Part shown: positions 905-48,460 of the stretch, in pieces | Layout: each line of letters begins with the position of its first letter | Numbering within the stretch: the first letter of the stretch is position 1 | Source: Ipomoea triloba | Taxonomy: Eukaryota; Streptophyta; Magnoliopsida; Solanales; Convolvulaceae | Length of the DNA: 64,000 nt | Direction: 5' to 3' | Assembly (NCBI RefSeq): GCF_003576645.1 | Contig: NC_044925.1 | Location: 18,238,378-18,302,377 of the forward strand | Notes under the pieces: generated by a model | The model's database searches: none | Seen by the model: the letters and a program-made list of their open reading frames with translations, nothing else | Told to the model about the DNA's origin: nothing | Position numbers and translations under genes: made by a program

Positions 905-1025
905 TTTGTCATCAAATGAGCCCAGGAGTTCCCCCAAACACTTCAACATGTAAGGTGTTGCAATAAGGATGTCCACTACTACTGATGAAGTGTTATGGAG
1001 GAACTCTAGGGGACATCTCATAATA
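905..1025 (-). ncRNA. MIR395: MIR395 precursor hairpin, cluster 1, distal (miR395 with 5' U)
   Basis: Read on the minus strand, 926-946 gives a 21-nt miR395 whose last 20 bases are TGAAGTGTTTGGGGGAACTC, with T as first base. It lies on the 3' arm. The 5' arm (about 984-1010) carries the imperfect complement, plus-strand TGAAGTGTTATGGAGGAACT, separated by a loop of about 38 bases. Pairing continues outside the duplex (CCAGGAGTT against AACTCTAGG). This is the standard MIR395 arrangement: miRNA on the 3' arm, star on the 5' arm with a bulged centre. In plants miR395 targets ATP sulfurylase mRNAs and the sulfate transporter SULTR2;1 and is induced by sulfate starvation. It sits 3' of the next hairpin in the same orientation, consistent with one polycistronic transcript. 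Expression cannot be judged from sequence. Confidence 0.92.
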
Positions 1026-1097
1026 TTCTCTTCAATGTCCTTAATTAAAAAACACTACATGCATTAATCTCGCAATCAGCAGGATATTGTTATATGT

Positions 1098-1240
1098 CAA
1101 ATAGTCCACAGAGTTCCCCCAAACACTTCAGTAAGCTAGCAATATATAATGCCCTTTAATTTCTCATAAGTTGAAGGCATATATATGCATATACGCCGCA
1201 TATTGAAGTGCTCAAGGGAACTCCATGGAAAACCTGACCA
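1098..1240 (-). ncRNA. MIR395: MIR395 precursor hairpin, cluster 1, proximal (canonical miR395)
   Basis: On the minus strand, 1111-1131 is a canonical miR395: C followed by TGAAGTGTTTGGGGGAACTC. The 5' arm at 1203-1224 (plus-strand TGAAGTGCTCAAGGGAACTC) is the typical miR395 star with its GAGCACUUCA core. Stem pairing extends to the flanks (plus-strand CCACAGAGTT against AACTCCATGG). The loop is long, about 70 bases, and AT-rich. It lies about 75 bp upstream, in transcription sense, of the hairpin at 905-1025. MIR395 genes commonly occur as compact same-strand clusters, which this pair matches. Any promoter should lie at higher coordinates. Confidence 0.94.
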
Positions 1241-1560
1241 TATTTTTATGCACTCTGTTGCTTCTAGTTTCTGCATTGGGGAAGTTGATGCAGGAAGGTT
1301 TGCTATATATACTCAATTCTCAATTGCAGAAAAATAAATAAAAACTATTTTAGAGCAAGAAACTCGGTAGAATACAATTGCAAGCATGAACCTGGTCTGA
1401 AATGTGGGTTGAGGGAGATAAATGGAATAAACAAACTGTGATAAAAAGGTTTTATCCATGCATGGCTGCAGGATATTCTACCACTTTCAGAAATTCCTTT
1501 CAAATGGCCGCATAAGCATTTGTAGTCCGTACGACAGATCTTGACTTCCCACGATTGTTT

Positions 1561-2933
1561 GAAATTTTAGCATAAAATGGCATTCAAGTGACTATTTTGT
1601 GGTACAAATATATATGGGGCCCACTTTCGATTTGTGTCCGATTAAAGTGGATTCTCACACTTCCCACAGAGATACGAAGAAATCGATATATTGTACGCAC
1701 AAAACGAATAATGGGTGAATGAAATTTTGATTCTTAAAGCAGACTCAATTGAGTTAAAAATGAAGGTGTAAAGACTTTGATAAAGCATTTGTCCCACATT
1801 GCTTTGGGAAGTGAATTTTTTAAAGGAGGTTGAATTGTATAAGATAGAGATTCTCTCTTGCGTGGAGTAAAACTTTGTTTACTATTTGGATTGTATTGTA
1901 CGAGTATTTACCATTCAGACTTCTTCCGGATGCTTTGTGGGTACTGCTCGAAGTACATTCAAACTTGACTACTCGAAAGTCTACTCTTCGGTTTGACCGA
2001 GTAGTTGACTACTCGTACGTAACCTTTTGACAACTCTTCGTGGGTACTACTCGAACTACTTTTCAGAGTACCGTTCTAGACAATGTTAATTATATTCTAA
2101 TTCATAGGAATTAAGTCAAATTTATATTTTAAGAATTAATAGTCGTAACAGTTGTGTTTAAGTCAAATTTAAGTTGTCGATTACATAGTTTATATATCTG
2201 AAATTATTTCAGATGTTAATGCCATTTTTTTTCCTACTACTTTTCACCTGATCAAAACTTTGGTTTTGTTTTACTCTATCTCTTCCTCTCTCAACTATTT
2301 TCTTACAAAAACTCTGTCAACACTTACATAAAAGTTAGGTCAAAGTGCTCGCCTTTGTTCTTGTTCACCGAGCATTTACTTTGAGTGCTCAAACTTTAAG
2401 CTGCAATCCGTTTTATTCTGGGAGATTAATGCTACAACGCTCATATATTGGTTTCCTACAAAAATTTGATTGGTATTAATTTTCTAAAAATTAAATTTCA
2501 TTTTTCGTTTTGTGTATATATTTTTATATATTTTTTTTTGGTAAATCGACTTATTCACCATGTACACTCTTAAAAACTGATATATTTGTGGATAAGTCGA
2601 TGACATCCACTTTTGTTGTTGTAATTGGAAGCATGAATGTTGCTTGTGATGCACATTCGATTCGTTGGAGTGGTAGAGTTGTTGCACATTTTGAAATCCG
2701 GTGAACTTTGGTTCGGAGACCGGTGGTGGCATCCAAGGGTATATCCTTATAATGCAAGTGTTTGTGACGGTACCATGTGGTTCAATCGAAAGACCTTAGA
2801 AATTCAAGGAGTTGAAGTTCAAAGGATGACAACATAAAATGTTGTTCAACCTAGTGATTCTCGGCTTGTCATCATTCTTGACCGAGACAATTCCTAGTGG
2901 AAAGCAACATTAGTGTACGCTCAAACTATAACA
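1561..2933. other. Non-coding stretch, nothing recognised
   Basis: No conserved domain is visible in any frame. Repeated CTACTCG/CGAGTAGT words occur at 1880-2060 and form short imperfect inverted repeats, but I cannot assign them to an element. Confidence 0.45.
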
Positions 2934-3116
2934 GGGCGTTTAGTTGGGAGGAGGGAATTAGGGGGGAAAAGAATTGTAATTCAGTGGAATTGCAATTCAA
3001 TGAATAAAGTAGGAATTGAAATTACAGTGTTTGGTATGCTGAAATAGGAGTACAGGGAATTGAAAGGTAAGAAGCGACAAAATAACTAAAATGCCCTTAT
3101 GTTGTAGTAATAGTCA

Positions 3117-3156
<40 letters not shown>

Positions 3157-3215
3157 TCTTTCAAATAATAATAATAATAATTAATAATTAATAATAATAA
3201 TTCTTTCAATTTTTT
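2934..3215 (+). mobile_element. End of a GGGCGTTTAGTTGG-type MITE with (AAT)n
   Basis: The terminus GGGCGTTTAGTTGGGAGG is followed by GAATT-rich sequence and an (AAT)n run at 3119-3156. The same terminus and interior style, including an AAAATGCCCTT/AAATTACCCC motif, occur in the more complete copy at 21035-21799. The opposite end is not evident here, so this is a partial copy. PIF/Harbinger (Tourist-like) affinity is inference from the terminus alone. Confidence 0.5.
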
Positions 3216-3532
3216 TGAGGAGGGGTGTTCCAAAAATCATCTACATTGATGTAGATGCTCTAATCAGCCAGTACTTTACACATTTTGATCTACCTTTTTA
3301 TTCTTACACATTTTTATCTTTTATCCTAGTCAAATTTATACAAAAATGTCAACAGCCCCTAACCAACCTGTTCGCCATTTCCTCTTCGTATGAGGTAATC
3401 TCTATCCCTTTTTTTTCTTCTGGTCTTTTTTAAAGAATTACTCCGTATTATATTGTTTGGGACAGGATGTTGATGTGCCTAATGATATTATATTCAAGAT
3501 ACTCAACTCAAGCAGGCCATATAATAGTGACC

Positions 3533-3535
<3 letters not shown>

Positions 3536-3574
<39 letters not shown>
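3536..3574. repeat. (AT)n microsatellite
   Basis: A dinucleotide AT run. The sequence between it and the hairpin element at 3876 contains no recognisable gene. Confidence 0.95.
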
Positions 3575-3580
<6 letters not shown>

Positions 3581-3875
3581 GGGCAGCCAGGGGAATCTTT
3601 TAGGAATCTTCATTCCTTTTGATTTAAGAATGCACAACACATTCTTCTTTTGTGTTCAATGCAATTGCTTTTGTCAGCCATCCAGACATTGGCATCTTAT
3701 AAAACAATTCATCAAAGGAGGACTGATCTCGACCTGTCACTGAAGGTTAAATAAAATCACTTCAAATACATGGATCATCCTTTAATTTGCTTTCATCTTT
3801 GCTTGTGGTATGCCGTATGCCCTATGAGTTTTGGTATCTCATCATAATTTTTTTTTTGCATAAGTGTAAACGTAA

Positions 3876-4367: not shown

Positions 4368-4436
4368 TAAACATATATTACAAAACTGGATTATATATTT
4401 TGGTGGTAAAAATATAATGTTTGTGATGAATAATGA

Positions 4437-5471: not shown

Positions 5472-6356
5472 TTACGTTGCGCCAAGGGGAGGTTGCAAAA
5501 TCTCTTGGGTAAATCGGTCAAAGTATGAACGATCGTGGTGGATACAAATATCATCATCATCTTCCAATTCGTCCTCCATTAAACGTTGTTGCATAGAAAG
5601 CAGTGGGGAATCCTCATTCAGAATACCGCCATCAAATAATAAACCCATATCGATATTCTCCCCCTGTTGCACCACAGCCGGTTGTGCCAAAATCTCCTCT
5701 TTAGGATAGATATAATCATAGCTGCCATTTTGTTCCTCAGTAGGCGGTAATGTCTCCGTGGAACCCTCCAAGATTTGCAATATCATCTCAATGGGAACAT
5801 CCTCGCCGCTTTCTTGAGGTTCACTACCGGCTCTCTTTTTTCTTTGGAGCCTGCACAGGACGAAATCCTTTGTATGTTCCACAATGGGATACGTCTCCTT
5901 GGCTTTCTTCATCACTGCATCGCTGAGATAAAACTCTTTGAGAAGCCATTGCCGATCTTGCTCCGCTTCCTCTTTGTTCCGGTAAACAAAGCTCCGCTTA
6001 TACCCCAACAGCGCCCCACTTCTCTTGTGAACTATTGGTTTGCCTTTATCTTGACCGTGCCATGTGCCGGGGCTCTTCCCAACCCTGCGCGCAAATCTCG
6101 ATGATGAGGCCTTGGATTTCCTCTTCAACTGAGTAAAAAAGTAGTGGAATTTCTCATCGCAATCCCAACGGAATAACTCCCATGCCTCTTTGTCGCCGTA
6201 GAGGTCTTCATGGCGAATCACATTTGTGTCATAGCAACCCATCCCAGTAACAAAACGGAAGAGAATCATAAGCAACTCATAGTCGCTTGGTTGAAACCGA
6301 TGACCCAAACTCTTCTTCATATTTACGTACAGCTTGTACTTTTTTTTTTTAAACAA
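5472..6356 (-). CDS. Divergent NAC-domain transcription factor, single exon
   Basis: The 294-codon minus-strand frame contains a recognisable NAC domain over about residues 18-172. Subdomain A is GHRFQPSDYELL (family: GFRFHPTDEEL), B is IRHEDLYGDKEAWELF, C contains FHYFFTQLKRKSK and PGTWHGQDKGKPI (family: YFF, GYWKATGKDK), D contains LGYKRSFVYR, and E contains WLLKEFYLS and DFVLCRLQRKKR. The C-terminal half is acidic and Gln/Glu-rich, suiting a transcription activation region. The first 12 codons are Lys-rich and come from an A-run; Met13 (ATG at 6320-6318) is the more likely start, giving 282 aa. NAC domains are usually split by introns, and none is needed here. Several usually conserved residues differ, so DNA binding is uncertain. 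Function beyond NAC family membership cannot be assigned. Confidence 0.85.
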   Translation of the reverse strand: MFKKKKYKLYVNMKKSLGHRFQPSDYELLMILFRFVTGMGCYDTNVIRHEDLYGDKEAWELFRWDCDEKFHYFFTQLKRKSKASSSRFARRVGKSPGTWHGQDKGKPIVHKRSGALLGYKRSFVYRNKEEAEQDRQWLLKEFYLSDAVMKKAKETYPIVEHTKDFVLCRLQRKKRAGSEPQESGEDVPIEMILQILEGSTETLPPTEEQNGSYDYIYPKEEILAQPAVVQQGENIDMGLLFDGGILNEDSPLLSMQQRLMEDELEDDDDICIHHDRSYFDRFTQEILQPPLGAT

Positions 6357-8726
6357 AAAGGAAACTTTAATTAAACTTATTCAAGTTCACAAACATGAAC
6401 AATGGAACGAAACCGAACCCATAAACAATTCACACAGTCAGACTTAGACAAGGCCTCCCGTGCTAACAAATAGGCGAGACCTTATTGGCAAACATAAATA
6501 TTATTGAAATACATTAAAAAGCTTGATGCTATTAGCTCATGCCTAAAAACAGAATTTAAAATGAAAGGTTCGGAAAAACTAAGTATTGCCTTGCAAATGA
6601 AAAGTAAAGATTTCTAAAATCTCTAGCTAATTCTCTAATATCATGAATAAGAAGATCGAACAAGCACAGCTTGGTATTTAGTTCCATTGAATATTTATAG
6701 AAGCCAAAAAAAGATTCATATATCAATGAAGGTATGCACTACCTAGCTATCGTACAACTTTTTTTTTTTTTTTTTTTGACAAATCGTACAACTTTTTTGA
6801 ATGTGCAACTGCAAAAACTGTATTGTATTGACTTTAATTTGTTACCATATTGCAGTGAGTGGATCTTTTGAGGGCCACAACTAATAGTGGATACAAATTT
6901 TCTAGGAGTCACTATCTGCCAGGGCTAGGGTGGGACTACGGTGGGGCCAGCTGCTCTCCCCTTATTATAGTACCCTCTTGTGTGTGTATTTATATATATA
7001 TATATATATAACTAATAGTTGAGTTAGGTGGGATAACAAGTTATGCTTTTAATTTAGAAAAGGGTCAAAGTTTCAATTCTCACTATACTTTTTAGAAATA
7101 TTAATAATGATATATTTAATTTAATTTTTTAAAGCATAATTTATAATGTATTTTTTATTTAAATCATCATTTTATCAAACTAACTATGTTTCATATTTTG
7201 GTATAAATTTATTTTTTAATAAAATTTTGATCTGTTTCTTATCTTTTCTTTTCTTCTTTTTTTTTTTTTTTCAAACTATCTCTTTTGTATTAATCTTTCA
7301 TGTTCACTAAAAAAAAAATTTTGATCCACCCATGTGTGAGGGTGTGGTCTAGAAAACTCTATTACCTTAGCCGACAAAACATCATAAGGAAGCCAGTAAA
7401 TCAACCTATAAACCCTACCTTGTAATCTTACTTGGCAATTGACGACAATAAAGTAAATTAATCTAAATTGTCCGCTTTCAAAAAAAAAAAACTAAATTGT
7501 CCATAACTTACCCATTCTGAAAGTTGAACTTATAATTTTATGCTTATCAAGTCAACAATTCGATGAACTTAATTTGGCATTGTCCCAATAAATAATATAA
7601 TAGATAAAATTTTGGAATTAAGGATCCCTCCGCTCCAAGAATATTATTCATTCTATTGTCATTCCCACTTGGAATCATTATATATGATACTTTCCAAAGG
7701 GAGGCTTTATTGATTACTGACAGGAGTGGTGAAAAGAGAATGCAGACATGACATTGACAACCTTGGATTTATGTGATCCATGCTCTAAAAGAGAGCTTTA
7801 ATTCTTTAAATATGAATTAAAACTAACTCAGACACCAGTAGTTGATTGCTTTTATCCCCTTCACAGTTTAACAAGGACAAACCAACTGAGATGGCACACT
7901 CATCTTCAAACATTAATATAAATTAAAACTAACTAGACACTAATTTGGAGTGGTTGATAAGCCAATTCGCTTATCAACGTATTGGTCCAAATCGTTATAA
8001 TGTGGATCATGGTTCACAATGCATTGTGGACCATGTACCATGACTGATATTGCAGTTGTATTGAATTGATACTATCAGATTAGATAATTAATCTACTATT
8101 TATTTTTGTTTAAATAAAATTAATGTATAAAACTTGAACTTAGGTTCATAAAAATAATATTATATGTTTAGGCATCAAACCAATAACCCCCATTCTAATC
8201 CCTAGTCTTTTATCATTACTTTCATTCCACTATTTTATTCATATGTTTAACTTGTCTCACTCCTTTTATTGTTTGTTTAGCTTTCATAAATTATTCAGAG
8301 CTTGTGTCTAGATCTTCTTTGGCTAACCAAATTTCCAATCCCTTAGACGATCAAAACCAAAATTTATTTTTTGTTTGTTCAGAGCGAATCATTCTAGGAT
8401 CAACTTTTCGGTTCTTACTATTCGAATAATCTTACTTTACAGAAATAACTTTCCCTTTTTTACTTCTCATAAATCTTCTGAAGAATTAAGCCAAAAGATT
8501 CTTCTATCTCCTTAAGATTTTCCGTAAAGCTAATCCAGAATATTTTTCTCTCTCCTCATTTTCTAAATATCAAATACTCCGTAACTCTTAATAGAATTTC
8601 CCAAATATCAAATATTTCTCCATAAACAATTAATCAAGCCCACTAACAACCAATTGTTAACAACGTAACTAATTGTCAAGCAAGGCCATTGTTATAAATG
8701 AAAATATAATTGTAGATATATTTTAA
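6357..8726. other. Long non-coding stretch between NAC gene and MITE
   Basis: AT-rich, with poly-T at 6762-6778 and 7258-7271 and (TA)n at 6991-7010. At 7985-8045 there is a palindromic GTGGATCATGGTTCACAATGC / GCATTGTGGACCATG motif related to those at 10862, 19391, 37027 and 45670. No conserved coding sequence is seen. Confidence 0.5.
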
Positions 8727-12640: not shown

Positions 12641-12695
<55 letters not shown>

Positions 12696-12990: not shown

Positions 12991-13349
12991 ATATATATAT
13001 ATATATTCAAAAATATTTTAAATCCAAGATTGCCTTTTAAATTCCAAAGAAAGCAATTTTCTTTGATGTTATCATATGACAATAAATAAAAGTCAAGGTC
13101 AAATACTAACAAACGTCGATTTGTTTTTGAAAATAGCAGTGTCAAGAGTTAGTAATCCTAAAGGATTCAAAATTTTGATTTGTAGCGAAAATGTCCAACT
13201 TGTAAGTACGACTAAAAATATCGTATACAAAAAAGTTTTCAATAATGTGTAATAAAATTACAATGTTTATCATTATGAATTTATTTTTTGTATTCATCAT
13301 TTAATATTTTTCTATATTAGACTATAAATTTTATTTTAATTTTTTTTTT

Positions 13350-13377
13350 CCGTGCATCACACGGGTGCAACTACTAA
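13350..13377 (+). mobile_element. Helitron 3' terminus (CTAA)
   Basis: The hairpin CCGTGCATCACACGG is followed by GTGCAACTA and CTAA, then T. This is the Helitron 3'-end plan: short GC hairpin, 9-12 nt, CTRR, insertion before T. About 165 bp of upstream sequence is repeated before the next terminus. No 5' TC end could be assigned. Confidence 0.6.
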
Positions 13378-13516
13378 TTTTCAATATCGTATACAAAAAA
13401 GTTTTCAATAATGTGTAATAAAATTAAAATGTTTATTATTATGAATTTATTTTTTGTATTCATCATTTAATATTTTTCTATATTAGACTATAAATTTTAT
13501 TTTAAAATTTTTTAAT

Positions 13517-13544
13517 CCGTGCATCGCACGGGTGCATCTACTAG
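13517..13544 (+). mobile_element. Second, tandem Helitron 3' terminus (CTAG)
   Basis: The hairpin CCGTGCATCGCACGG is followed by GTGCATCTA and CTAG, then T. The ~165 bp before it (AATATCGTATACAAAAAAGT through TATTAGACTATAAATTTTA in part) duplicates the segment before the 13350 terminus. Two 3' ends are therefore stacked head-to-tail, as in tandem Helitron insertions or end extension. Confidence 0.65.
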
Positions 13545-13867
13545 TCACTCAAAATAACATTTGTGTTAATTTTATAACATTAGTATAAAAAATAAATTTA
13601 AAAAATTGAATGTTAATAAACAAATTTTCAAAACAAAAAAAATAAAGAATGAAAACTAGAAAATAAAAAACAAAAAAAAAAAAACAATTTTCTAAAGTAA
13701 ACCAACCTAAACTTGTTCTTAACCTCCGCCCACCCGTCCTCCCTTCCCGGTCAAAAACCGGTTTGCCTTTGTCAAGTATTAATGTATTACCTTGTATTTT
13801 CCGTTTGCATCCAACATACAAAACATTACCAGCTTTAGTCTTCTAAAGGAAAAGTTGCATCGGTACT

Positions 13868-13908
13868 CGTTGTTGTTGTTGTTGTTGTTATTATTATTAT
13901 TATTATTA

Positions 13909-13935
<27 letters not shown>
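13868..13935. repeat. Compound (TTG)n(TTA)n microsatellite
   Basis: TTG repeats run into TTA repeats just upstream of PMD exon 1. The matching run in copy 2 is at 15515-15582. Confidence 0.93.
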
Positions 13936-13936
<1 letters not shown>

Positions 13937-13940
<4 letters not shown>

Positions 13941-14923
13941 CAGTACTGACGTATTTGTACAGAGCGCTATGCCGAAGTTCTAACTACAACACTGCAACAG
14001 TATGCGGCTGCATAGTTCTATTGCAGTTATGGGCATGGGAGCGGTTGCCCATGGTTAGGCCACAAGGTATTTTACCAGTGGAGTCGTTGGGTGATCTGCC
14101 GCTCGGCGCGAGGTTAATTGTATTAAATACGTTAATAGATTTATATTTGATAATCTAGTGTTTCCTTAACTTAAGTTTGTATTTGCAACTGTAGGTAAGT
14201 CTCTTCACATGGCTATTCCAATGTGACCACACACGTTGTCCGAGCATATCGAGACCAATTAGATCGTACGTACGAACGCAACGTAAGTTTCTATAGCGTT
14301 TAATTTATACTATGACATTATATTACGATTTTAGATTACATAACAAATATCATATAAAATTGTGCTATATAATATATATTACGATTTTTGCAGTTTGTGT
14401 TCACCCCGTACGACGAAGTTATGGCAATTTTGCCCGACTATTGCAAGGCGGGTGAAAGAATATGGACTGCAGAAGTACCGCTAATATTTTTTATATCGTT
14501 GAACATCATTTCCCTGACCGCTTCTAAAGACAATTTCATTGGTTTCAAGACGTACCTCGTCCAGTGCAATTTCGTAAGGACTTGCACGATTTGGACGGAC
14601 GGTCAGGGGAGATATATTTCAAATTGGCTAGAAAAACATATGGATTATGTGCTTCAATGGTATGATGCACCGAACTGTGTCATCCAAATGCAAGTGCCCC
14701 AGGGTCAACATACTGTAAGAAATGTCTACCAGAGGTAGTAGCACCAGTGTGGGCGCCGCATGATTAGTAATCCTGCCCATACTATATGTGAGGGTTATCA
14801 GCCCAGTCCGCCACTTATACTGAAATGGTTAGTATGTGTTGTTTTTTAAATATTCATACGTTTAGGATTTATTATGTTAGATTTTGATGTGTTATATATT
14901 TTTGTGGCGTAGATATATGGGTT
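13937..14923 (+). pseudogene. Plant mobile domain (PMD/MAIN-like) gene, broken, copy 1
   Basis: Exon 1 (about 13937-14110) encodes YRALCRSSNYNTATV and LLQLWAWERLP, hallmarks of the aminotransferase-like plant mobile domain. Exon 2 (14195-14282) gives HVVRAYRDQLDRTYERN. Exon 3 (from 14394) gives FVFTPYDEVMAILPDYCKAG and WTAEVPLIFF. Introns are GT-AG. In exon 2 a TAA at 14196-14198 stands where the family has Trp, and exon 3 has a TAA at 14538-14540. Homopolymer differences (T-run near 14490, G-run near 14607) shift the frame relative to copy 2. PMD genes are transposon-associated or meristem-maintenance factors. Copy 1 is cut by the N gap and is probably an assembly duplicate. Confidence 0.75.
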
Positions 14924-14948
14924 NNNNNNNNNNNNNNNNNNNNNNNNN
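14924..14948. other. Assembly gap of 25 N
   Basis: Twenty-five N separate two nearly identical ~1.63-kb sequences, so the true locus probably has one copy and no gap. Confidence 0.99.
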
Positions 14949-15555
14949 TTCATCATTTAATATTTTTCTATATTAGACTATAAATTTATTTTAATTTTTT
15001 TTTTCCGTGCATCACACGGGTGCAACTACTAATTTTCAATATCGTATACAAAAAAAGTTTCAATAATGTGTAATAAAATTAAATGTTATTATTATGAATT
15101 TATTTTTTGTATTCATCATTTAATATTTTTCTATATTAGACTATAAATTTTATTTTAAATTTTTTAATCCGTGCATCGCACGGGTGCATCTACTAGTCAC
15201 TCAAAATAACATTTGTGTTAATTTTATAACATTAGTATAAAAAATAAATTTAAAAAAATTGAATGTTAATAACAAATTTCAAAACAAAAAAAATAAAGAA
15301 TGAAAACTAGAAAATAAAAAAAAAAAAAAAAAACAATTTTCTAAAGTAAACCAACCTAAACTTGTTCTTAACCTCGCCCACCCGTCCTCCCTTCCCGGTC
15401 AAAAACCGGTTTGCTTTGTCAAGTATTAATGTATTACCTTGTATTTTCCGTTTGCATCCAACATACAAAACATTACCAGCTTTAGTCTTCTAAAGGAAAA
15501 GTTGCATCGGTACTCGTTGTTGTTGTTGTTGTTGTTATTATTATTATTATTATTA

Positions 15556-15587
<32 letters not shown>

Positions 15588-16574
15588 CAGTACTGACGTA
15601 TTTGTACAGAGCGCTATGCCGAAGTTCTAACTACAACACTGCAACAGTATGCGGCTGCATAGTTCTATTGCAGTTATGGGCATGGGAGCGGTTGCCCATG
15701 GTTAGGCCACAAGGTATTTTACCAGTGGAGTCGTTGGGTGATCTGCCGCTCGGCGCGAGGTTAATTGTATTAAATACGTTAATAGATTTATATTTGATAA
15801 TCTAGTGTTTCCTTAACTTAAGTTTGTATTTGCAACTGTAGGTAAGTCTCTTCACATGGCTATTCCAATGTGACCACACACGTTGTCCGAGCATATCGAG
15901 ACCAATTAGATCGTACGTACGAACGCAACGTAAGTTTCTATAGCGTTTAATTTATACTATGACATTATATTACGATTTTAGATTACATAACAAATATCAT
16001 TATAAAATTGTGCTATATATATATATATTACGATTTCTTGCAGTTTGTGTTCACCCCGTACGACGAAGTTATGGCAATTTTGCCCGACTATTGCAAGGCG
16101 GGTGAAAGAATATGGACTGCAGAAGTACCGCTAATATTTTTTTATATCGTTGAACATCATTTCCCTGACCGCTTCTAAAGACAATTTCATTGGTTTCAAG
16201 ACGTACCTCGTCCAGTGCAATTTCGTAAGGACTTGCACGATTTGGACGGACGGTCAGGGAGATATATTTCAAATTGGCTAGAAAAACATATGGATTATGT
16301 GCTTCAATGGTATGATGCACCGAACTGTGTCATCCAAATGCAAGTGCCCCAGGGTCAACATACTGTAAGAAATGTCTACCAGAGGTAGTAGCACCAGTGT
16401 GGGCGCCGCATGATTAGTAATCCTGCCCATACTATATGTGAGGGTTATCAGCCACAGTCCGCCACTTATACTGAAATGGTTAGTATGTGTTGTTTTTAAA
16501 TATTCATACGTTTAGGATTATTATGTTACGATTTTGATGTGTTATATATTTTTTGTGGCGTAGATATATGGGTT
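14949..16574. repeat. Copy 2 of the duplication flanking the N gap
   Basis: Near-identical to 13293-14923, including both Helitron-like hairpins (around 15006 and 15168), the (TTG)n(TTA)n microsatellite and the PMD exons. It continues seamlessly into unique sequence at 16575, as copy 1 does on its left. Confidence 0.93.
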
Positions 16575-28433: not shown

Positions 28434-28559
28434 CGCGAGGTGGAGACCATCACCGACTCCTTGTTTGATGTAGGTTCGCCGGCGGCGACCACTCGGTCGC
28501 CGGCAGCCGGGGACCTACTGCATCGGAACTCGAAGAAATCAAAGCGCGATCGAGAAGCA

Positions 28560-30134
28560 ATGGGAACACCAATACTTACTCCGAAGGACGGGATTGTTCA
28601 AGAAACCCTCCTAACAGCTGGCCTGAAATCTCCGGATTCCACCCAATGGAGAACTCTGGTTGAGACCCCCAATAACGCCTGGGGTAGAAAAGAGCAATAC
28701 ACACAGTTGGGAGATGAAGCGGTCTCAAATGATGAAGCGATGGACGAGGCAGGCTCCGACCCGAATTGCCCAACGATCCCAGTGTCCAAAGAGGAAAAAG
28801 AACGCCTCAAACGCCCATGGCGCCAGACTCTCATAATCAAAGTTCTTGGACACAAGGTTAGCTATTCTTACCTTCTGCAAAGGCTCCAAAAGATGTGGAA
28901 GCCAAAATCAAATTTTGACCTAATTGCAATCGACCAAGATTACTACCTGGCGAGATTTGATGCGCTCCAAGACTACGAGTTTGCTAAATACGAATGCCCC
29001 TGGATTATCATGGGCCATTATCTAACAGTCCAAGAATGGGTGCCGAACTTCTTCCCTCATAAAAATAGAATGGATAAGTTGTTGGTCTGGGTAAAGTTCC
29101 CAGCGGTTCCAATCGAGTATTTCGAAGACGACTTCCTAAAGAAAATAGGGAAATACATAGGGCGACCGATCAAGGTTGACACCACTAGAAGTTTGGTATC
29201 AATAGGCAGGTTTGCCAAAGTGTGTGTGGAGTTAGATCTGACAAAACCACTATTGGCAAAATTCACATTAGGTGGCGAGGTTATTCCAATAGAGTATGAG
29301 GGGATTCAAATGGTGTGCTTCAAGTGTGGCATCTATGGCCATAAGCAAGATCAATGTGGATCGGGAAATCAAGAGGTAGGGAACGAGGCGCACGTCGCAG
29401 ATACAGAGCAAGCTCAGAGGGCAGAGAGATCAACGAATGAGACCCCTAATGCGATGCGTCAAGAGTCCATCTCAAATCGAATTCGGAAGGAGAACTTCGG
29501 GGTGTGGATGTTGGTAGCTAGGAAGGAAAGAAGGGGACAACGGAGGGGAGGCAACCGGACTACTGGGCTGCCTAACGCTGGACAGAACCGAATGCCAGCA
29601 TACAACGAAGTCCAAGGAGGCCTGGGATCGAATTCCCGATTTGCAGTCCTAGAGGGCCTGAATGATGGCGAGGATAATGGTCCCAACGAATATACAGTCC
29701 CCGCAACTACTGAATATGCGGCTCGAAGGCCATTGCCTAGAATCTGTATGAATCAGAATAACCAAACGAATGAGGGTCAAAGACCATTACCACAGAATGC
29801 CCCACCCAGACAAACCATTCCTCTAGAGCGTGGAGCATTTAGAGGGAGGGGCGGTAGGGGATTGGCACAAAGAAGAGCGGCAGCCGAACCCGAGCATACA
29901 GTAGTGAGAGGCTCTAACAGAGGGAAACAGATCACAATCACAAGGATCCAATACTCGAATGGTCCACCTGAGTCACCCGCTAGGATGGATGATGACTATG
30001 AGCTACTGGGAGAACCTCCTGACTTTCCCAGAATCTTTGAGTATAGACCGGAAGATCAGGACACTGCTATGTTGGATAATGTTGGTCGTTTGGACCATGG
30101 GTTCGCTGAGAGGCGGGATCGCCTGTGCCCTTGA
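28560..30134 (+). CDS. LINE ORF1 protein (DUF4283, CCHC zinc knuckle)
   Basis: This is a long intact frame. The first ATG is at 28560 (524 aa); the frame itself is open from 28434. After an acidic N-terminal region, the DUF4283 domain reads RQTLIIKVLGHKVSYSYLL, MWKPKSNFDLIAIDQDYYLA and CPWIIMGHYLTVQEWVPNF. Then come LVWVKFPAVPIEYFEDDFL and DLTKPLLAKFTLGGE, and a zinc knuckle CFKCGIYGHKQDQC (CX2CX4HX4C). The C-terminal third is Arg/Gly/Gln-rich. It is the RNA-binding, Gag-like protein of plant L1 elements. No stops occur, although ORF2 is deleted. The last residues after about codon 545 come from the deletion junction. It is a transposon gene, not a host gene. Confidence 0.88.
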   Translation: MGTPILTPKDGIVQETLLTAGLKSPDSTQWRTLVETPNNAWGRKEQYTQLGDEAVSNDEAMDEAGSDPNCPTIPVSKEEKERLKRPWRQTLIIKVLGHKVSYSYLLQRLQKMWKPKSNFDLIAIDQDYYLARFDALQDYEFAKYECPWIIMGHYLTVQEWVPNFFPHKNRMDKLLVWVKFPAVPIEYFEDDFLKKIGKYIGRPIKVDTTRSLVSIGRFAKVCVELDLTKPLLAKFTLGGEVIPIEYEGIQMVCFKCGIYGHKQDQCGSGNQEVGNEAHVADTEQAQRAERSTNETPNAMRQESISNRIRKENFGVWMLVARKERRGQRRGGNRTTGLPNAGQNRMPAYNEVQGGLGSNSRFAVLEGLNDGEDNGPNEYTVPATTEYAARRPLPRICMNQNNQTNEGQRPLPQNAPPRQTIPLERGAFRGRGGRGLAQRRAAAEPEHTVVRGSNRGKQITITRIQYSNGPPESPARMDDDYELLGEPPDFPRIFEYRPEDQDTAMLDNVGRLDHGFAERRDRLCP

Positions 30135-32089: not shown

Positions 32090-33450
32090 TCCGAAAATCT
32101 CTGTTCTGATGGTTAAAGTGTTGACTATTCATTTGTGTTTTAAACTACTAGTTTTAGGCTATTAATTATTAGATATAATGGTTAAAGTAGTATACTTGTG
32201 CAATTAAGTATTAGATATAATGGTTAAAGTAGTATACTTGTGCAATTAAGTAGTATATTTGCTGGTTAAAGTAGTATACTTGTGCAATTAAGTAGTATAT
32301 TTGCTCTATAAAGTGTTGTGTTTGATGGTTAAAGTCATGATCATTCATTTGTGATATAAAGTAGTATATTTGCATTATAAAGTATTAGATTTAATGCTTA
32401 AAGTAGTATATTTGCATTATAAAGTATTAGATTTAATGCTTTAAGTGTTGAGTATTCATTGTTGTTATGAAGTAGTATATTTGAGCTAATCCCCCAATTG
32501 AGTATTCATTGTTGTTCATGAATTATTTGTGAGGTTGAAATCTCCGGCAGTTAATGATGAGTCAAAGGAAAATTTGGTAAATGATGGCTCTTTAACATCA
32601 AACATTAACATTATTTTGTCTCTCTTTCTCCTGTCTTTCTTTCACTTCTACTGATATGGAGTAATTAATTTCTTCTTTAACATGCAAATACTTTCCTTTA
32701 GTATGCGTCTGTATAGTCATATATGTTTTTTCACTTCTTGAAATGTTTGTTAAATGTACATTGATCTATTTGTGGCTATTAAATATTGTGTTTGATTGTT
32801 AAAGTATTAGATATAATGGTTAAAGTGTTGAGTATTCATTTGTGTTTTAAAGTACTAGTTTTAGGCTATAAAGTATTAAATTTAATGGTTAAAGTGTTGA
32901 GTATTCATTTGTGTTTAAAAGTACTAGTTTTAGGCTATAAAATATTAAATTTAATGGTTAAAGTGTTGAGTATTCATTTGTGTTTATTAAATTTAATGGT
33001 TAAAGTGTTGAGTATTCATTTGTGTTTATTAAATTTAATGGTTAAAGTGTTGAGTATTCATTTGTGTTTAAAAGTACTAGTTTTAGGCTATAAAGTATTA
33101 AATTTAATGGTTAAAGTGTTGAGTCTTCATTTGTGTTTAAAAGTAGTATGTTTGTGCTATTATGTATTGTGTTTGATGGTTAAAGTGTTGAGTATTATAT
33201 TCATTTGTGTTTAAAAGTACAAGTTCGTTTTAGGTAAAGTATTAAATTTAATGGTTAAAGTTTTGTGTACTCATTTGTATTATAAAGTACTAGTTTTAGG
33301 CTATAAAGTATTAGATTTAATGTTAAAGTGTTGAGTATTCTTTTGTGTTATAAAGTACTAGTTTTAGGTTATAAAGTATTAAATTTAATTTTAAAGTGTT
33401 GAGTATTCATTTGTGTTTAAAAGTAGTACATTTGTGCTATTAAGTGTTGA
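32090..33450 (+). repeat. Minisatellite with TTAAAGTGTTGAGTATTCAT units (block 1)
   Basis: Degenerate tandem units of about 70 bp combine GGTTAAAGTGTTGAGTATTC, ATTTGTGTTTAAAAGTACTA and GTTTTAGGCTATAAAGTATT. The most regular part is at 32800-33130, where shorter 42-bp units (33000-33050) also occur. The continuous frame over 32786-33214 arises from the repeat length and is not a gene. Confidence 0.9.
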
Positions 33451-35303: not shown

Positions 35304-35834
35304 AACCTACTATTTGTTCAATTTGAATTGCTTATTCATTATTTGGAATTATACGAATTCAAGAGGACAATGCATTGGATATATAATATGAGCAGGTTCT
35401 ATCATTTTGTAGTTTTTTGAATGAACTATGTATTTTTCTTATGAAACAATGCAATAATGTCTGAAGCTTTTGGCTACCTCTCCAGTTTGACTTTGGGCAT
35501 GTCTTTTCCACTAGTTCTTGGACAAAAAGATAGAAGTAATCTAACCCATTGATTTGATACATAAATTTCAAGTTGTGTGCTCTAAATATAGCTTGAAGAT
35601 GTTTTTTTCTCCTTTCCTACTACCTTAGTCCAATGTTTTTCATGTGGGAAAAAGTATAGGTAGATCTTTTTTGTTGGAGTTAGTTTGGTTTGTACCCTTA
35701 TTATACTTTCAATGCTAAACCAATAGATATAGAGGCTTTTTATTTAGTTATCAAATATAAATGTGGTTGAAATCTAATGACGTTGTTGGAGGAATATCAT
35801 GTTTCCCAACTTCTCTTTCATCCTTCACGTGATT

Positions 35835-36430
35835 TAATAAAGTACTAGTTTTAGGCTATAAAATATTAGGTTTAATGGTTAAAGTGTTGAGTATTTATTT
35901 GTGTTTTAAAGTACTAGTTTTAGGCTATAAAATATTAAATTTAATGTTAAAGTGTTGAGTATTAATTGGTGTTTAAAAGTATTATATTTGTGCTATTAAG
36001 TATTGTATTTGATGGTTGAAGTGTTGAGTACTCATTTGTGTTTTAAAGTACTAGGTTTAGGCTATAAAGTATTAAATTTAATGGTTAAAGTGTTGATTGT
36101 TCATTTGTACAATTAAATAGTATATTTGCTCTATAAAATATTGTGTTTGATGGTTAAAGTAGTCATGATCATTCATTTGTGATATAAAGTAGTATATTTG
36201 CATCATAAAGTATTATTTTTAATGTTTTAAGTGTTGAGTATTTATTTTTGTTATGAATTGAATTAGTATATTTGTGCTATTAAGTATTGTGTTTGATGGT
36301 TAAAATGTTGAGTATTCATTTGTGTTACAAAGTACTAGTTTTAGGCTATTACGTATTAAATTTAATGCTAAAGTGTTAACTATTCATTTGTGTTTTAAAG
36401 TACTAGTTTTAGGCTATAAAGTATTAAATT
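35835..36430 (+). repeat. Minisatellite with TTAAAGTGTTGAGTATTCAT units (block 2)
   Basis: These are the same units as at 32090-33450, on the far side of the TRIM and a 530-bp unique stretch. Together they suggest one original array. Confidence 0.88.
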
Positions 36431-37330: not shown

Positions 37331-37333
37331 AGC

Positions 37334-37344: not shown

Positions 37345-37866
37345 CGGGAGCTCACAATTGTGCTAAGTCGGAAATTAAATGGAAGAGAATATTTTAAAAG
37401 TGTGGGTTTCTTGGCTCCCTCTTGTGATGCTGTTTAATACTACTCCATTTTGTTATGGAGTAGAAACAATTTCTGGGAACAAATATTTAACTCAAACTAC
37501 AACTATATCCTCCCCGAATGAAAGATTCGAGCTGGGTTTCTTCAGACCCGGCCAATCTTCCAACTATTACGTGGGTATTTGGTACAAAAACATCTCCCCG
37601 CAAGCAGTAGTTTGGGTAGCAAACAGGGTGGCACCGCTCCCCTCCGCCGCAATCGCCTCCGCCAAACTGAGAATCCTAGACGGCAACCTGGTGATCACAC
37701 ACAGCGAAACTCATCAGCTCTGTGCTAGCAACACTTGGAGATGACGGAAACTTGGTATTGAGTGACAACTCGACAGCCCCACTTTGGCAAAGCTTTGACC
37801 ACCCAACCGACACACTTCTGCCGGGTTCCAAGCTCGGATATAATAAGCTCACCAAAACCAAACAGG

Positions 37867-38335
37867 TGCGTACACAAGAAAATTGAATATATCTATACGG
37901 GGTTCAAAATTCCTATTACATGTTACATGTGGGTACAATATCTCTATGTATGATCCTCTGATTTTTCAATCCATTGAAGAGCTTCCGGATTGATTTTTCA
38001 ATCGATGTCTTGAATGCTCCATTGAAGAGCCTCCGGATCAATCGATGTCTTCCTGATTTCTAATAGCTTGATCAGAAGGGCCTCCGGATTCAAATGGCTT
38101 AATTTTCAAAGAACTTGTATGTTTGTTCTTCTGAAGGGCCTTATATGTTCTAAGATGAATACATAGAAACGAAAGGTCCTATTTATATATATATAGCTGT
38201 AAGATAGAAGAGTTTTGATAAGTTCAAACTCTTTTGATATTATTTCATTAACAAATTAGATAATATCAATATTATCCAAATATATATATTCAAATCTAAT
38301 AAAAATTAATTATATTTATCAAATTTTCTGTGTCA
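37867..38335 (-). mobile_element. Solo LTR of the TRIM family inside S-RLK exon 1
   Basis: The reverse complement matches the LTRs at 33904-35303 along its length (AGATAATATCAATATTATCC, AGTTTTGATAA, TGTTCTTCTGAAGGGCC, TGTGGGTACAATATCTCTA), but is clearly diverged. It is flanked by ACAGG at 37862-37866 and 38336-38340. Removing the LTR and one repeat rejoins the codons in frame (TKQ to VFTSW). It is therefore a solo LTR left by recombination between the two LTRs of a full element. Confidence 0.88.
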
Positions 38336-39077
38336 ACAGGTGTTCACGTCGTGGAAAAACTCAGACGATCCCGCACCCGGCCTATTTTCTTTTAGCAATG
38401 ATGGCAACGTCACGGTTCAATTATGGAACGGTACTGAGGAATACTGGAACAGCGGGCCCACCTACAATTTCACCATCGTTCACAACGAGAACGAGAGTTA
38501 CTTTACTTTTACTGTATCACCAACCCTAATAGCAAGAGGTATACTAGACATAAATGGGCAACGGAAGGGGATGGCGTGGTTAGAGGCTGGACAGGAGTGG
38601 GTGCCAATCGTGGTTCAACCCGCACAAGAATGCGACGTTTATGCCTACTGCGGCCCATTCGGCATCTGCACCCAAACTTCATCGCCCGTTTGTGGTTGTT
38701 TGTATGGTTTCAAGTACAAATCACACAAACGCTGGGGTTTGAATCAATTCTCTGATGGCTGTGTAAGGAACACCAGTTTGAATTTGAAGTGTGGAACTAA
38801 TAATTACCAAGAAGAGGGCATGGCCGATAGCTTCAAAATGTATCCAAATGTGAGATTGCCAAGACATCCTCAAAACATCACAACTCAGAATCAGGCAGAA
38901 TGTGAGTCCACTTGTCTCCACAATTGTTCTTCTACTGCCTACGCTTATCATAACACCAATGCTGGTTGCTCACTTAGTCACTTTGGGTTGGACAACTCCT
39001 CAACCTCAAACACTTTGATGGTAATGGAAGCACCATTTACATCAGACTTGCTGCCTCTGAATTTTCAAACCTCAAAG

Positions 39078-39694
39078 GTAATGTAATTACAATACAATAC
39101 TGCCTCAGCACAACAATTTCCCCACCACATGGTTCTGATACCACTTATAGTTATTAGGATCTAACAATAATCACTATGCCAAAAGTTATAGTTACTACCA
39201 GATCAGAGGCACAACTTTATTAATGGGCTATATCACTCAAAACAACATCTAGCGAAATAACACTAAATTATACAAGCTATATATATTTTTAGGTTAATAT
39301 TTAATATTTTTGTATTAACTATTAAAGAATTATATACTTTATAATTATTAGTCTTTAAAAAATTAAGAATATCTAAGCAAATTTTTATAAAATAAAAAAA
39401 AATACATGGGCGCCTCGATTAATCCCGCCTGGGCGTCCTAGGCACTAGGCGCTCCCGAGAGCCTAGCGATTTTTTCAACCATGGTTCTGATACCACTTAT
39501 ATTATTAGGATCCAACAATAATCACTATACCAAAAGTTATAGTTACTAGCAGATCAGAGGCACAACTTTATTTTTTAATACCCCCATTTTCGAGAGGCAG
39601 GTTCGTCTGCCCAACAAATACTCATGTTGAACTAGCTTAACTGCAACTCCTACTTTGTGTTTAATGTAATTTTCTTTTCATGTTATTAATTGCA
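39078..39694 (+). repeat. S-RLK intron 1 with a direct repeat and element debris
   Basis: A segment of about 87 bp (GGTTCTGATACCACTTATA...AGATCAGAGGCACAACTTTA) occurs at about 39129-39215 and again at 39481-39571. On the minus strand it includes TGGTATCAGAACC, resembling a copia primer-binding site. Between the copies, 39390-39480 (GGGCGCC..., CGCCTGGGCGTCCTAGGC, CCTAGCGATTTTTTCAACCA) matches the right end of the 53333-54135 element, so a fragment of that family sits inside the intron. Confidence 0.6.
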
Positions 39695-42050: not shown

Positions 42051-42051
42051 A

Positions 42052-44524: not shown

Positions 44525-44528
<4 letters not shown>

Positions 44529-44581
<53 letters not shown>

Positions 44582-44582
44582 T
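44529..44582. repeat. Palindromic (GT)n(AT)n(AC)n microsatellite
   Basis: GTGTGTGTGTGT is followed by an AT run and ACACACACAC, giving a perfect foldback. Confidence 0.93.
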
Positions 44583-45625: not shown

Positions 45626-45899
45626 TTCAATGTTATGAAATTATAAACATAGAGTTATGAAATTGTGAATATAGACCCATGTCCACCATGCAATGTGGTC
45701 CCGGATCCGTGGCATAACAACTGATGAAGGAGAACGCAAAACTCTCTCTCTCTTATTTCTTCGCTTTCCTCTACTTCAACAAAACCCACATACACCAAAA
45801 TTTCTATTGTGAATGCTCTTAGTCGTAAAGTCCGATTGCAATTAATGCTTTAATGTCTTCAGTGACAACAGAGTATATCATGAAATAAGTTCTATACTG

Positions 45900-46255
45900 C
45901 GTTATGAATTAGATACATAAAAAAAAGTTATAGATAAAAAAAAACAAACAATTAGGTACATACAAAAAGTTATAGATAAAAAAAAACAAACAATTAGGTA
46001 CATACAAAATAATATTGCAGTTGCATAAAAAACAATTAGGTACATACAAAATAATATTGCAGTTGCATAAAAATGGCACAAACAGTCGAAAATTTATATA
46101 CATACAATAGTTAATTTATATACTCACAAAAAGTTATAGATAAAAAAAAACAAACAATTAGGTACATACAAAATAATATTGCAGTTGCATAAAAATGGCA
46201 CAAACAGTCGAAAATTTATATACATACAATAGTTAATTTATATACTCACAGAGTC
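45900..46255. repeat. Tandem and nested direct repeats
   Basis: ACAATTAGGTACATACAAAA occurs repeatedly, with ATAATATTGCAGTTGCATAA three times and GGCACAAACAGTCGAAAATT twice. The longest duplicated block (about 115 bp) is at 46010-46120 and 46150-46250. Confidence 0.8.
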
Positions 46256-46504
46256 ACAGTAATGACTTTTGTGAACCAAATTTAAGTACCTAACATAATA
46301 AATTTATGTACTTGTAAGTTGTAAGTTTGTTTTTAAAAATTGAACAAAAATATGAATATAAGTGTCATTTATCTCAATTAGAGTTACGTTTCAATGATAT
46401 ATTATTAATTTTATATATACCAAAATGAAAAAGAAAAAAATGACACATTAAGTTCAAGGTTATTGTTGTTGTAATTCATTATTAATATATTGTTGGAGTA
46501 ATAG

Positions 46505-46560
46505 CTAAAGACCTTGTGGTCTAGTGGTACTTAGTTTACACTCCCACATGGATGCGATTG
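46505..46560 (+). mobile_element. 5' fragment of the tRNA-type SINE
   Basis: AAAGACCTTGTGGTCTAGTG followed by a CTCCCACATGGATG segment matches the SINEs at 18291 and 27775. The 3' half is missing. Confidence 0.65.
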
Positions 46561-46924
46561 TTGATTTTTTGTTCTTTGCATTTTAGCGTTTCAAATCAAA
46601 CAGCTGATAAACTAACTATGTTACCAAATAGATTTCATATAGTTTTTGCTTTCATTCATCCCAAACCAGTCATGCCCCTTATCAGATCTTATATATCTGC
46701 TTGAATGACCCATCAGGTTCCAGGTTATTCATTGTTGGAGTGTCATCCATTCGTGGTATCTGAGGAAGTTGAAAAGCAAATATTCCTTCTACACATGGTA
46801 CGTACTGAACTGGTATTTTACACCTGCATATCATTCATAAAAATAGATTGTTATCGTGAAGGAAATTTTCACCCTCACCTACCTAGAAGAATTTTCATCA
46901 TATATAGTTGCATTATTATCTCAA

Positions 46925-47195
46925 GGGAAAATTGTAATTTATGTCCCTCCATAATATGTCAATTATCAATATCACCCCTGAATTATTAGTGGTGTAAATA
47001 TTACCCCTCAATTTTTAGAAACGGTACATATATTGCCCCTCCCGTGGTGTAAATATTGCCCCTCCTGAGTTACAGGAGGGAGGGGTAATATATGTACTGT
47101 TTTTGAAAATTGAGGGGCAATATTTATACCACTAATAATTCAAGAGTGACATTGATAATTGGCATATTATACAGAGTAAAAATTACAATTTTCCC
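46925..47195. mobile_element. 271-bp foldback MITE, perfect 9-bp target duplication
   Basis: The flanks 46916-46924 and 47196-47204 are identical TTATCTCAA. The arms of about 120 bp are inverted copies: GGGAAAATTGTAATTTATGT on the left and (reverse-complemented) GGGAAAATTGTAATTTTTAC on the right, then AATTATCAATRTCAC, GAATTATTAGTGGTRTAAAT, CCCCTCAATTTT and TACATATATTRCCCCTCC. The two arms nearly meet. It is a MULE-type MITE without coding capacity. Confidence 0.88.
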
Positions 47196-47339
47196 TTATC
47201 TCAATGTATAACAGTAAGTGACGACATAAAATATGCAGATTCGCCCGATTTATTCATAATGGGAGTTGGTATATACGGAGTAATTGACAATGGAGCATCA
47301 TGCCTGATTCCACATAATTCTATGGAGTAATCTTGTTAC

Positions 47340-47735
47340 GATCAAGCACTTACCACTACACCAAAAGTTATAGCTCGTAGTAAAGCGATTACAATGCAAC
47401 TTTTCACATTTTCTAGACGTTGTGTGTTGGACTTGGCCTTTTAAGCCCTTCACTAGCATCAGCCCAACAATCCCTCAACCACTGGATGCTAGACTTGGCT
47501 TTTACTAGCCTCCGCTCAACAACTCGAACCCGTGACTTAGCTCTAATACTACTTTTGTTAACCGTTGTCTATAAGCATTTTTCTTGTAGTGAAGCAAAAG
47601 TGACGCAACTTTATTTCCTTATAAACTCTCATCACATTTTCGAGACAGGAAGAGTGCTAGACATGGCCTCCGCCCAACAATCCTCAATCATTAGGTGCTA
47701 GATCAGACTTGGTCTTTAGTGACCTCCGCCCAACA
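47340..47735. repeat. Repeat region with CTCCGCCCAACAATCC units
   Basis: Three diverged copies of a CCAACAATCCCTCAACCACT / GGATGCTAGACTTGGC segment occur within 400 bp. CAACTCGAACCCGTGACTTA on the plus strand contains the reverse complement of a B-box (GGGTTCGAG), so a SINE-like origin is possible. Open frames here are not gene-like. Confidence 0.45.
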
Positions 47736-47777
47736 AATCTTTTTCGTTCTAAAGAATTTTAATTTCTCATCAAATGA

Positions 47778-47890
47778 GCCCAGGAGTTCCCCCAAACACT
47801 TCAACAAGTAATGAGTTATAATCACTTGCAATAAGGATGGAATTAGCCTCCAATATTGATGAAGTGTTATGGAGGAACTCTAGGGTACAT
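47778..47890 (-). ncRNA. MIR395: MIR395 precursor hairpin, cluster 2, distal (miR395 with 5' U)
   Basis: The minus-strand miRNA is at 47784-47804, identical to that at 926-946 (T then TGAAGTGTTTGGGGGAACTC). The opposite arm at 47859-47880 is plus-strand TGAAGTGTTATGGAGGAACT, also unchanged from cluster 1. The loop is longer and diverged. Arms are conserved while the loop varies, the pattern expected under selection on a functional precursor, although both copies could also be young. It is the partner of the hairpin at 905-1025. Confidence 0.92.
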
Positions 47891-47948
47891 CTGATAACAT
47901 TCCATCTCTTCAATGTCCTTAGCAAACACATTAATTTATGTATGTCAA

Positions 47949-48066
47949 GTAGTCCACAGAGTTCCCCCAAACACTTCAGTAGGCTACCAATGCCCTTAGC
48001 TTTCTCATCAATTCAAGCTAGGCATATGCATATTGAAGTGTTCAAGGGAACTCCATGGAAAACCTG
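47949..48066 (-). ncRNA. MIR395: MIR395 precursor hairpin, cluster 2, proximal (canonical miR395)
   Basis: The minus-strand canonical miR395 is at 47959-47979 (C then TGAAGTGTTTGGGGGAACTC). The star arm is at 48033-48054 (plus-strand TGAAGTGTTCAAGGGAACTC), with one difference from cluster 1 (GTGTTC against GTGCTC). The loop is about 25 bp shorter than in cluster 1. It is about 68 bp upstream, in transcription sense, of the previous hairpin. Confidence 0.94.
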
Positions 48067-48115
48067 ATGATCATATTCTTTTTAATGTATTTTCTGTTGC
48101 TAGGAAGTCTTGCTA

Positions 48116-48116
<1 letters not shown>

Positions 48117-48173
<57 letters not shown>
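48117..48173. repeat. (AT)n microsatellite upstream of MIR395 cluster 2
   Basis: An AT run about 50 bp upstream, in transcription sense, of the MIR395 proximal hairpin. The aligned position in cluster 1 is a short TATA-like motif at 1302-1311. Confidence 0.93.
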
Positions 48174-48177
<4 letters not shown>

Positions 48178-48460
48178 CTTCTCAATTAGTGCAGAAAAAT
48201 AAATAAAAACTACTGGGTATTTTAGAGCATGAAACTGGGTAAAATACAATTGCAAGCATGAACCTGGTCAGAAAATTGGGTTGAGTGAGATAAATGGAAT
48301 AAACAAACTGTGACTAAAAAGGTTTTATTATTCAAGGTTGCAGGATATTCTACCACTTTAAGAAATTCCTTTGAGGCTTTCAATGGCTGCACAACTATTT
48401 GCAGTAGTCCTTAGGGACAAATCTTAATTGACCTCCCAAGATACAAGTTTTATAAATGGA

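Follow-up and report, generated by a model that had tools for sequence, protein, structure and literature searches.

The 64,000-nucleotide stretch of Ipomoea triloba DNA studied here (contig NC_044925.1, C10:18238378-18302377; 'the window' means this whole stretch) carries two groups of microRNA hairpins of the MIR395 family and raises the question of whether these are independent copies of one gene, how they arose and what has been kept in common between them. A first-pass annotation had described two clusters 47 kb apart. They form a real pair of two-hairpin units, but the description was incomplete: the window cuts through an array of six such units (A-F) that extends over 96 kb of C10, all on the minus strand, and holds the last two, E and F. 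We regard this six-unit array as very probably the right explanation of the locus. Its worth lies in the six-unit series with its history and in a promoter box.

Two-hairpin units and the six-unit array

Searching the window with a 21-nt miR395 pattern at up to three mismatches gave four matches, all on the minus strand (926-946, 1111-1131, 47784-47804 and 47959-47979), and none in 100 dinucleotide shuffles of the window. All four precursors exceeded the gathering score of the Rfam family RF00451 (56 bits) with 61.3-66.1 bits, and folding each locus, as had been proposed, gave stabilities of z -5.8 to -9.7 against shuffles, bearing out the four minus-strand hairpins annotated earlier. At each locus, a mature segment of the CUGAAGUGUUUGGGGGAACUC type lies on the 3' arm of a stable hairpin and contains one unpaired base. 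The units and their hairpins are as follows, with minimum free energy abbreviated as MFE.

878-1555, minus strand: unit E, upstream region and two-hairpin MIR395 gene; a homologous block that would be transcribed right to left
916-1016, minus strand: unit E distal MIR395 hairpin, 5' U isoform, mature segment 926-946; RF00451 62.6 bits, MFE -44.0, z -5.8
1101-1233, minus strand: unit E proximal MIR395 hairpin, 5' C isoform, mature segment 1111-1131; RF00451 61.3 bits, MFE -58.5, z -8.2
47736-48442, minus strand: unit F, upstream region and two-hairpin MIR395 gene; 71.4% identical to unit E over 756 columns
47774-47890, minus strand: unit F distal MIR395 hairpin, 5' U isoform, mature segment 47784-47804; RF00451 62.1 bits, MFE -49.3, z -8.0
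47949-48063, minus strand: unit F proximal MIR395 hairpin, 5' C isoform, mature segment 47959-47979; RF00451 66.1 bits, MFE -56.8, z -9.7

By blastn, the two blocks (878-1555 and 47736-48442) share 71% identity. With transcription running right to left, the ~320 bp above each proximal hairpin constitute the promoter side, and these lie within the duplicated block, as the claim of duplicated promoter-side flanks had held. The order of the hairpins is the same in both units; their spacing, once thought equal, is nearly so (185 nt between mature segments in E versus 175 nt in F, with gaps of 84 and 58 nt between the paired hairpins, which lie on the same strand). Mature segments come in two kinds: that of the proximal hairpin begins with CTGAAG (5' C) and that of the distal hairpin with TTGAAG (5' U). 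Between E and F, each kind is identical, so that the statement that all four mature segments are unchanged is correct within each isoform but merges two of them. One promoter box and one TATA-like position were found upstream of each pair, and each two-hairpin unit would yield one transcript. When units B-F were folded, every mature arm paired with its own 5' arm in five of five units (mean pairing 0.88-0.95). Mispairing of hairpins across a unit was rejected, as mature arms showed 0.0 pairing with anything but their own 5' arm in all five.

Across the assembly (461,989,178 bases in 17 contigs), a pattern search at up to two mismatches returned 17 matches: ten in the 96-kb stretch of C10, three on C8 and one each on C15, C14, C13 and C5. 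The C5 match had no partner arm nearby at up to five mismatches and is read as a target site, not a hairpin locus. Seventeen MIR395 hairpins were counted in total, comprising 11 on C10, three on C8 and one each on C15, C13 and C14; the count is based on pattern searches at up to two or three mismatches, by which diverged loci may be missed, and leaves out the distal hairpin of unit A, whose arms are split by other sequence and whose mature segment is one base short. Fifteen of the 17 reached the RF00451 gathering score, the proximal hairpin of B (54.0 bits) and the distal hairpin of D (54.2 bits) falling just short, and all 17 were more stable than every one of 100 shuffles. The C14 and C13 loci (L024, 5013-5116, and L026, 4944-5048) have variant mature segments, with GGAGG and GGAAG, respectively, replacing GGGGG. 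From A to F, the units are spaced by 21.4, 6.6, 7.2, 14.1 and 46.8 kb; some of these intervals contain runs of N, such as the 1,349 N that immediately precede the window. Judged from titles and the starts of abstracts, none of the listed papers on miR395 with Ipomoea describes this array, and we make no claim that it is unpublished.

Unit E is closest to units outside the window, with identities of 94.2% to B, 93.2% to C, 86.8% to D, 79.6% to A (over part of the block only) and 71.4% to F. The diverged loops reported before are confirmed: of 179 sites in loops, spacers and tail, 43 are not the same in E and F (K 0.290 +- 0.047), compared with 25 of 241 sites in their promoters (K 0.112). Over the same loops, spacers and tail, K was 0.056-0.124 between E and B, C or D and 0.056-0.143 among B, C, D and E. 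With the rate of PMC6214957, 7e-9 substitutions per site per year, the E-F split would date to ~21 million years (My) ago, those within B-E to 4-10 My and those among B-F to 4-23 My; these ages are rough, since neutrality of the sites is not assured and any conversion among the copies would lower the estimates. Aligning the two window copies, which had been recommended for dating the duplication, therefore places E-F as an old split.

The flanks add a further layer. Upstream of the units, B matches D and C matches E (the latter pair sharing ~2.1 kb at 89.7%), with no match between the B/D and C/E kinds of flank. Among sites splitting the four units, 208 favor BD|CE, all in the flanks, a pattern for which duplication of a two-unit block is a plausible explanation. 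Against it stands the unit interior (~1487 to 888), where no site supports BD|CE and three each support BE|CD and BC|DE; the flank pairing is therefore unconfirmed by the units, and exchange between units is possible. A midpoint-rooted tree sets B-E apart from A and F, with A flagged as a long branch. The C15 copy resembles unit A (83% over 479 columns) and lacks the shared promoter. The array would have grown by stepwise local duplication of units, with old splits leading to A and F and a younger B-E group following.

A promoter box common to MIR395 loci

In the six-unit alignment, the longest invariant run covers 32 bases at the proximal mature segment, and the next is an 18-base promoter box, GACCAGGTTCATGCTTGC. 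An invariant run of 18 bases had P 0.016 in shuffled promoter columns. The assembly contains six exact copies of this 18-mer, one per unit, in addition to one with one mismatch and ten with two, compared with three matches for the sequence read backwards; this search applied limits for common words. The promoter features in the window are listed below.

1380-1397, minus strand: unit E promoter box GACCAGGTTCATGCTTGC, invariant in six of six units
1304-1311, minus strand: unit E TATA-like element TATATATA, an invariant 8-mer in the six-unit alignment, ~70 nt above the proximal hairpin; putative function
48252-48269, minus strand: unit F promoter box GACCAGGTTCATGCTTGC, exact match at C10:18286629-18286646
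48118-48173, no strand assigned: 56-bp (AT)n run at the TATA position of unit F, where the other five units have the 8-bp TATATATA

The distance from box to star arm is 174-179 bases in five units and 216 in F. The (AT)n run of F is a naturally occurring microsatellite within a promoter, and its length may differ from plant to plant. Among the papers listed for a microsatellite at the TATA box of a plant microRNA gene, none dealt with one, as judged by titles and the starts of abstracts.

Counted over the array and the other chromosomes together, the core 11-mer GACYAGGTTCA occurs upstream of 11 of 12 MIR395 loci, the C15 copy being the only one without it, and ~110 bp around the core can be aligned across loci. 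It lies 346, 376 and 843 bases above the three C8 loci. Within 272,587 bases (N included), the core was counted 12 times, 11 of them at these loci; the control is a limited one, the set being made up for the most part of MIR395 regions, to which ten other 3-kb loci were added as background. The twelfth core (L016 on C8, 8179-8189) lies 2.7 kb above the first C8 hairpin and ~1.8 kb above its box. Remnants of a hairpin were sought over 1.8-2 kb each on the sense side of this extra C8 box and of the C13 and C14 boxes, which are inverted; no match was better than eight mismatches in 21. Open reading frames (ORFs) of the C8, C13 and C14 regions had only short matches to the C10 region, which we took for repeats. 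As the loci are related by descent, the shared box reflects conservation and not independent origin. Selection would have preserved the promoter box along with the proximal miRNA, whereas the distal hairpins vary.

Which factor might recognize the box? PMC9573389 describes AYGWAYCT as a sequence of the EIL family that a SLIM1 fragment binds, with less affinity than EIN3. The box of unit E holds AGGTTCAT, the reverse complement of ATGAACCT, which is an exact AYGWAYCT (tebs) element, and the boxes of C10, C13 and C14 all carry ATGAACCT on the other strand. AYGWAYCT is accordingly present upstream of six of six C10 units (700 bp) and of the C13 and C14 loci (1.5 kb), against a background of 0.32 per kb on both strands. 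Boxes with C at the variable base have TGAACCTGG in common with the UPE-box. According to reviews, most transcripts induced by sulfate starvation, miR395 included, are induced less strongly or not at all when SLIM1 is lost; whether this control is direct is called unsettled in PMC8910084, and PMC4206189 words it as 'directly or indirectly'. With SLIM1 dependence reviewed and its directness unsettled, direct EIL control of MIR395 through the box is therefore a good hypothesis and not a result, to which we would give a little less than an even chance. The box, invariant in six units and common to loci on three other chromosomes, thus offers a specific candidate site for direct SLIM1 control.

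Several results weigh against this reading. Strict AYGWAYCT was absent upstream of all three C8 loci (1.5 kb) and of the C15 copy (1 kb), and the C8 boxes read TTGAACCT, one base off the EIL consensus. At C13 and C14, the core is not only inverted but also 0.7-1.1 kb from the hairpin. The full 20-nt UPE-box was rejected, as the best matches reached 12-14 of 20 positions, a level that 7-123 of 200 shuffled UPE-boxes also attained, depending on which of 11 loci was scanned; the best UPE match fell at the box in only five of the 11 (A, E, F, C14 and the first C8 locus). The SURE core was likewise rejected as a conserved promoter element, with GAGAC in none and GTCTC in one of six units within 600 bp. 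Compared with the UPE-box and tebs elements bound by SLIM1 and other EILs (PMC4206189, PMC9573389), the likeness consists of the exact tebs element ATGAACCT in C10, C13 and C14 and, relative to the UPE-box of PMC9573389, of the common TGAACCTGG where Y is C; the differences are the missing full UPE-box and the C8 loci with TTGAACCT.

Targets, proposed mechanism and rival explanations

Reviews, including PMC4206189, name SULTR2;1 and ATP sulfurylases as targets of the miR395 family, the targets that had been cited for this locus. Sites GAGTTCCTCCAAACTCTTCAT, complementary to miR395, occur in two ORFs with sulfate-adenylyltransferase matches. Both ORFs have a PUA_2 domain above cut-off, while their sulfate-adenylyltransferase matches stay below the whole-protein cut-offs, as expected for partial ORFs; one also matches a solved ATP sulfurylase in PDB (E 4.8e-47). 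The C5 site, GAGTTCTCCCAAACACTTCAA, lies in an ORF that matches sulP with 26.9 bits over 31 residues, below the model cut-off, and a rice SULTR-like transporter in PDB (E 1.3e-5); with no Pfam match at 0.001, it may be called SulP/SULTR-like only. The earlier target claim is thus supported by complementary sites in ATP-sulfurylase and sulfate-transporter-like ORFs. By a simple pairing score of our own, the ATP-sulfurylase sites had a penalty of 3.5; at the transporter site, it was 1.5 for the 5' C form and 0.5 for the 5' U form. The G:U pair at the ATP-sulfurylase site is absent when the C14 mature form is the partner. These three sites were the ones examined as targets among 35 matches in the search. 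The backwards control gave six matches, and three-mismatch matches are therefore near chance level.

In the mechanism we propose, each unit would consist of one ~0.3-kb promoter and one short two-hairpin transcript, with miR395 released from each 3' arm. Low sulfate would activate an EIL-type factor (SLIM1/EIL3), which would bind GACYAGGTTCA in the promoter; RNA polymerase II would start just downstream of the TATA box, DCL1 would cut both hairpins and miR395 would then cleave the mRNAs of ATP sulfurylase and SULTR2;1-type transporters. EIL binding, sulfate induction and cleavage are inferred steps of this scheme.

The two hairpins of a unit differ in how well they have been preserved. The proximal mature segment is intact in six of six units and the distal one in three (C, E and F); D has a single substitution and B a single inserted base, and the segment of A is broken. 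This is suggestive of decay specific to the distal hairpin, but the comparison of six with three is not significant (Fisher P 0.18). The altered distal segments also qualify the higher miR395 dose proposed earlier, which may or may not follow from the duplication. In C, D, E and F, the star strand of the distal duplex carries an additional base; in B, the inserted base makes the arms equal. Published work reports 5' nucleotide preferences of Argonaute proteins, with exceptions (PMC5744440), and initiation of secondary small interfering RNAs (siRNAs) by asymmetric duplexes (PMC6572396). Building on both, one could picture each unit as a two-isoform device in which the proximal 5' C form, from a symmetric duplex, would go to AGO5 and the distal 5' U form, from a duplex with a one-base star bulge, to AGO1; the distal duplex would start secondary siRNAs on the sulfate-transporter mRNA, with which only the U form pairs at position 1, and direct binding of EIL3/SLIM1 to GACYAGGTTCA would switch both on together. 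We consider this proposal speculative and improbable.

Three other explanations have to be weighed. The second locus might be an assembly duplicate or an uncollapsed haplotype of the first, and the assembly does contain suspicious repeats: window positions 13293-14923 and 14949-16574 are 98.6% identical around a 25-N gap, and a 1,684-bp stretch is repeated exactly within a few kb of unit D. Units E and F themselves, however, differ at the 43 sites given above, their flanks adjoining the block have no blastn match to each other, and F has its 56-bp AT run where E has 8 bp, so that the independence of the second locus, which had been queried at the outset, is well supported and its origin as an artifact extremely improbable. 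It is easier to imagine, if still rather unlikely, that the units are conserved by descent with some or most of them silent, so that one or two units, or else the C8, C13 and C14 loci, would supply the functional dose. The altered distal segments of A, B and D fit such silencing, as do the AT run at the TATA position of F and the C15 copy without the shared promoter. Set against them are the proximal mature segment and promoter box, unaltered in all six units over an estimated 4-23 My (B-F), which suggests continued selection on most units.

The remaining alternative concerns the factor and not the units. The box could be bound by some other protein, the EIL match being coincidental and the 110-bp module a general MIR395 core promoter. 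The C8 loci without strict AYGWAYCT and the unmatched full UPE-box favor such a factor, as does the conservation of other parts of the module (ATTC..CTT and CAACCC). Less easily accommodated are the reviews that report normal induction of miR395 in Arabidopsis to require SLIM1, and the 11 bases of highest conservation, which on the other strand hold TGAACCT, also present in the UPE-box printed in PMC9573389. We judge binding by another factor to be a serious possibility, somewhat short of even. Whichever factor binds, the array provides six versions of one regulated microRNA gene, among which the TATA region (in F) and the distal miRNA (in A, B and D) have varied naturally, and the C15 copy provides a promoter-less relative for comparison.

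Known MIR395 clusters and other features

Clustered polycistronic MIR395 genes are already known from rice and maize (PMC2773440, PMC2812943), and what is new here is the promoter module with GACYAGGTTCA across loci. The clusters of both cereals resemble the Ipomoea array in belonging to the same family and in placing neighboring hairpins a short distance apart (48-580 nt in maize) on a single strand. In these sources, the rice clusters are reported as single polycistronic units, and one maize chromosome carries two clusters separated by 10 kb. They differ in containing up to eight (rice) or three to five (maize) hairpins per cluster, whereas the Ipomoea array has two per unit, each unit with its own box, in six units over 96 kb. 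Cucumber likewise has several MIR395 loci on one chromosome, Csa-miR395a-d (PMC9240705); according to the accessible part of that paper, these are four loci with no repeated two-hairpin unit, in contrast to the array described here.

Between units D and E, an exact 1,684-bp direct repeat occupies positions 49739-51422 and 51449-53132 in joined array coordinates (L013, L014), with a single N near the junction; it represents either a recent duplication or an assembly artifact. Inside the window, the 1.64-kb direct repeat that flanks the gap at 14924-14948 is probably an uncollapsed overlap at a scaffold gap. An inverted repeat resembling a miniature inverted-repeat transposable element (46923-47197; 81.6% self-identity over 277 columns) lies ~0.5 kb downstream of unit F, and minisatellite-like arrays of many mutually similar short units extend over 32102-33449 and 35831-36430.

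Several ORFs of the window have recognizable domains. The ORF at 5472-6380 (minus strand) contains a NAM/NAC domain (PF02365, 69.7 bits). On the plus strand, the ORF at 37379-37744, with a weak lectin match below cut-off, and that at 38310-39086, with S-locus glycoprotein and PAN domains, resemble parts of an S-domain receptor kinase gene. DUF4283 ORFs at 28434-30134 (also with a zinc knuckle below cut-off) and 56962-57351, both on the plus strand, are probably derived from retroelements. Finally, an ORF with MuDR/MULE transposase domains (59633-61048, plus strand) adjoins one with a SWIM domain (61084-62136, plus strand).

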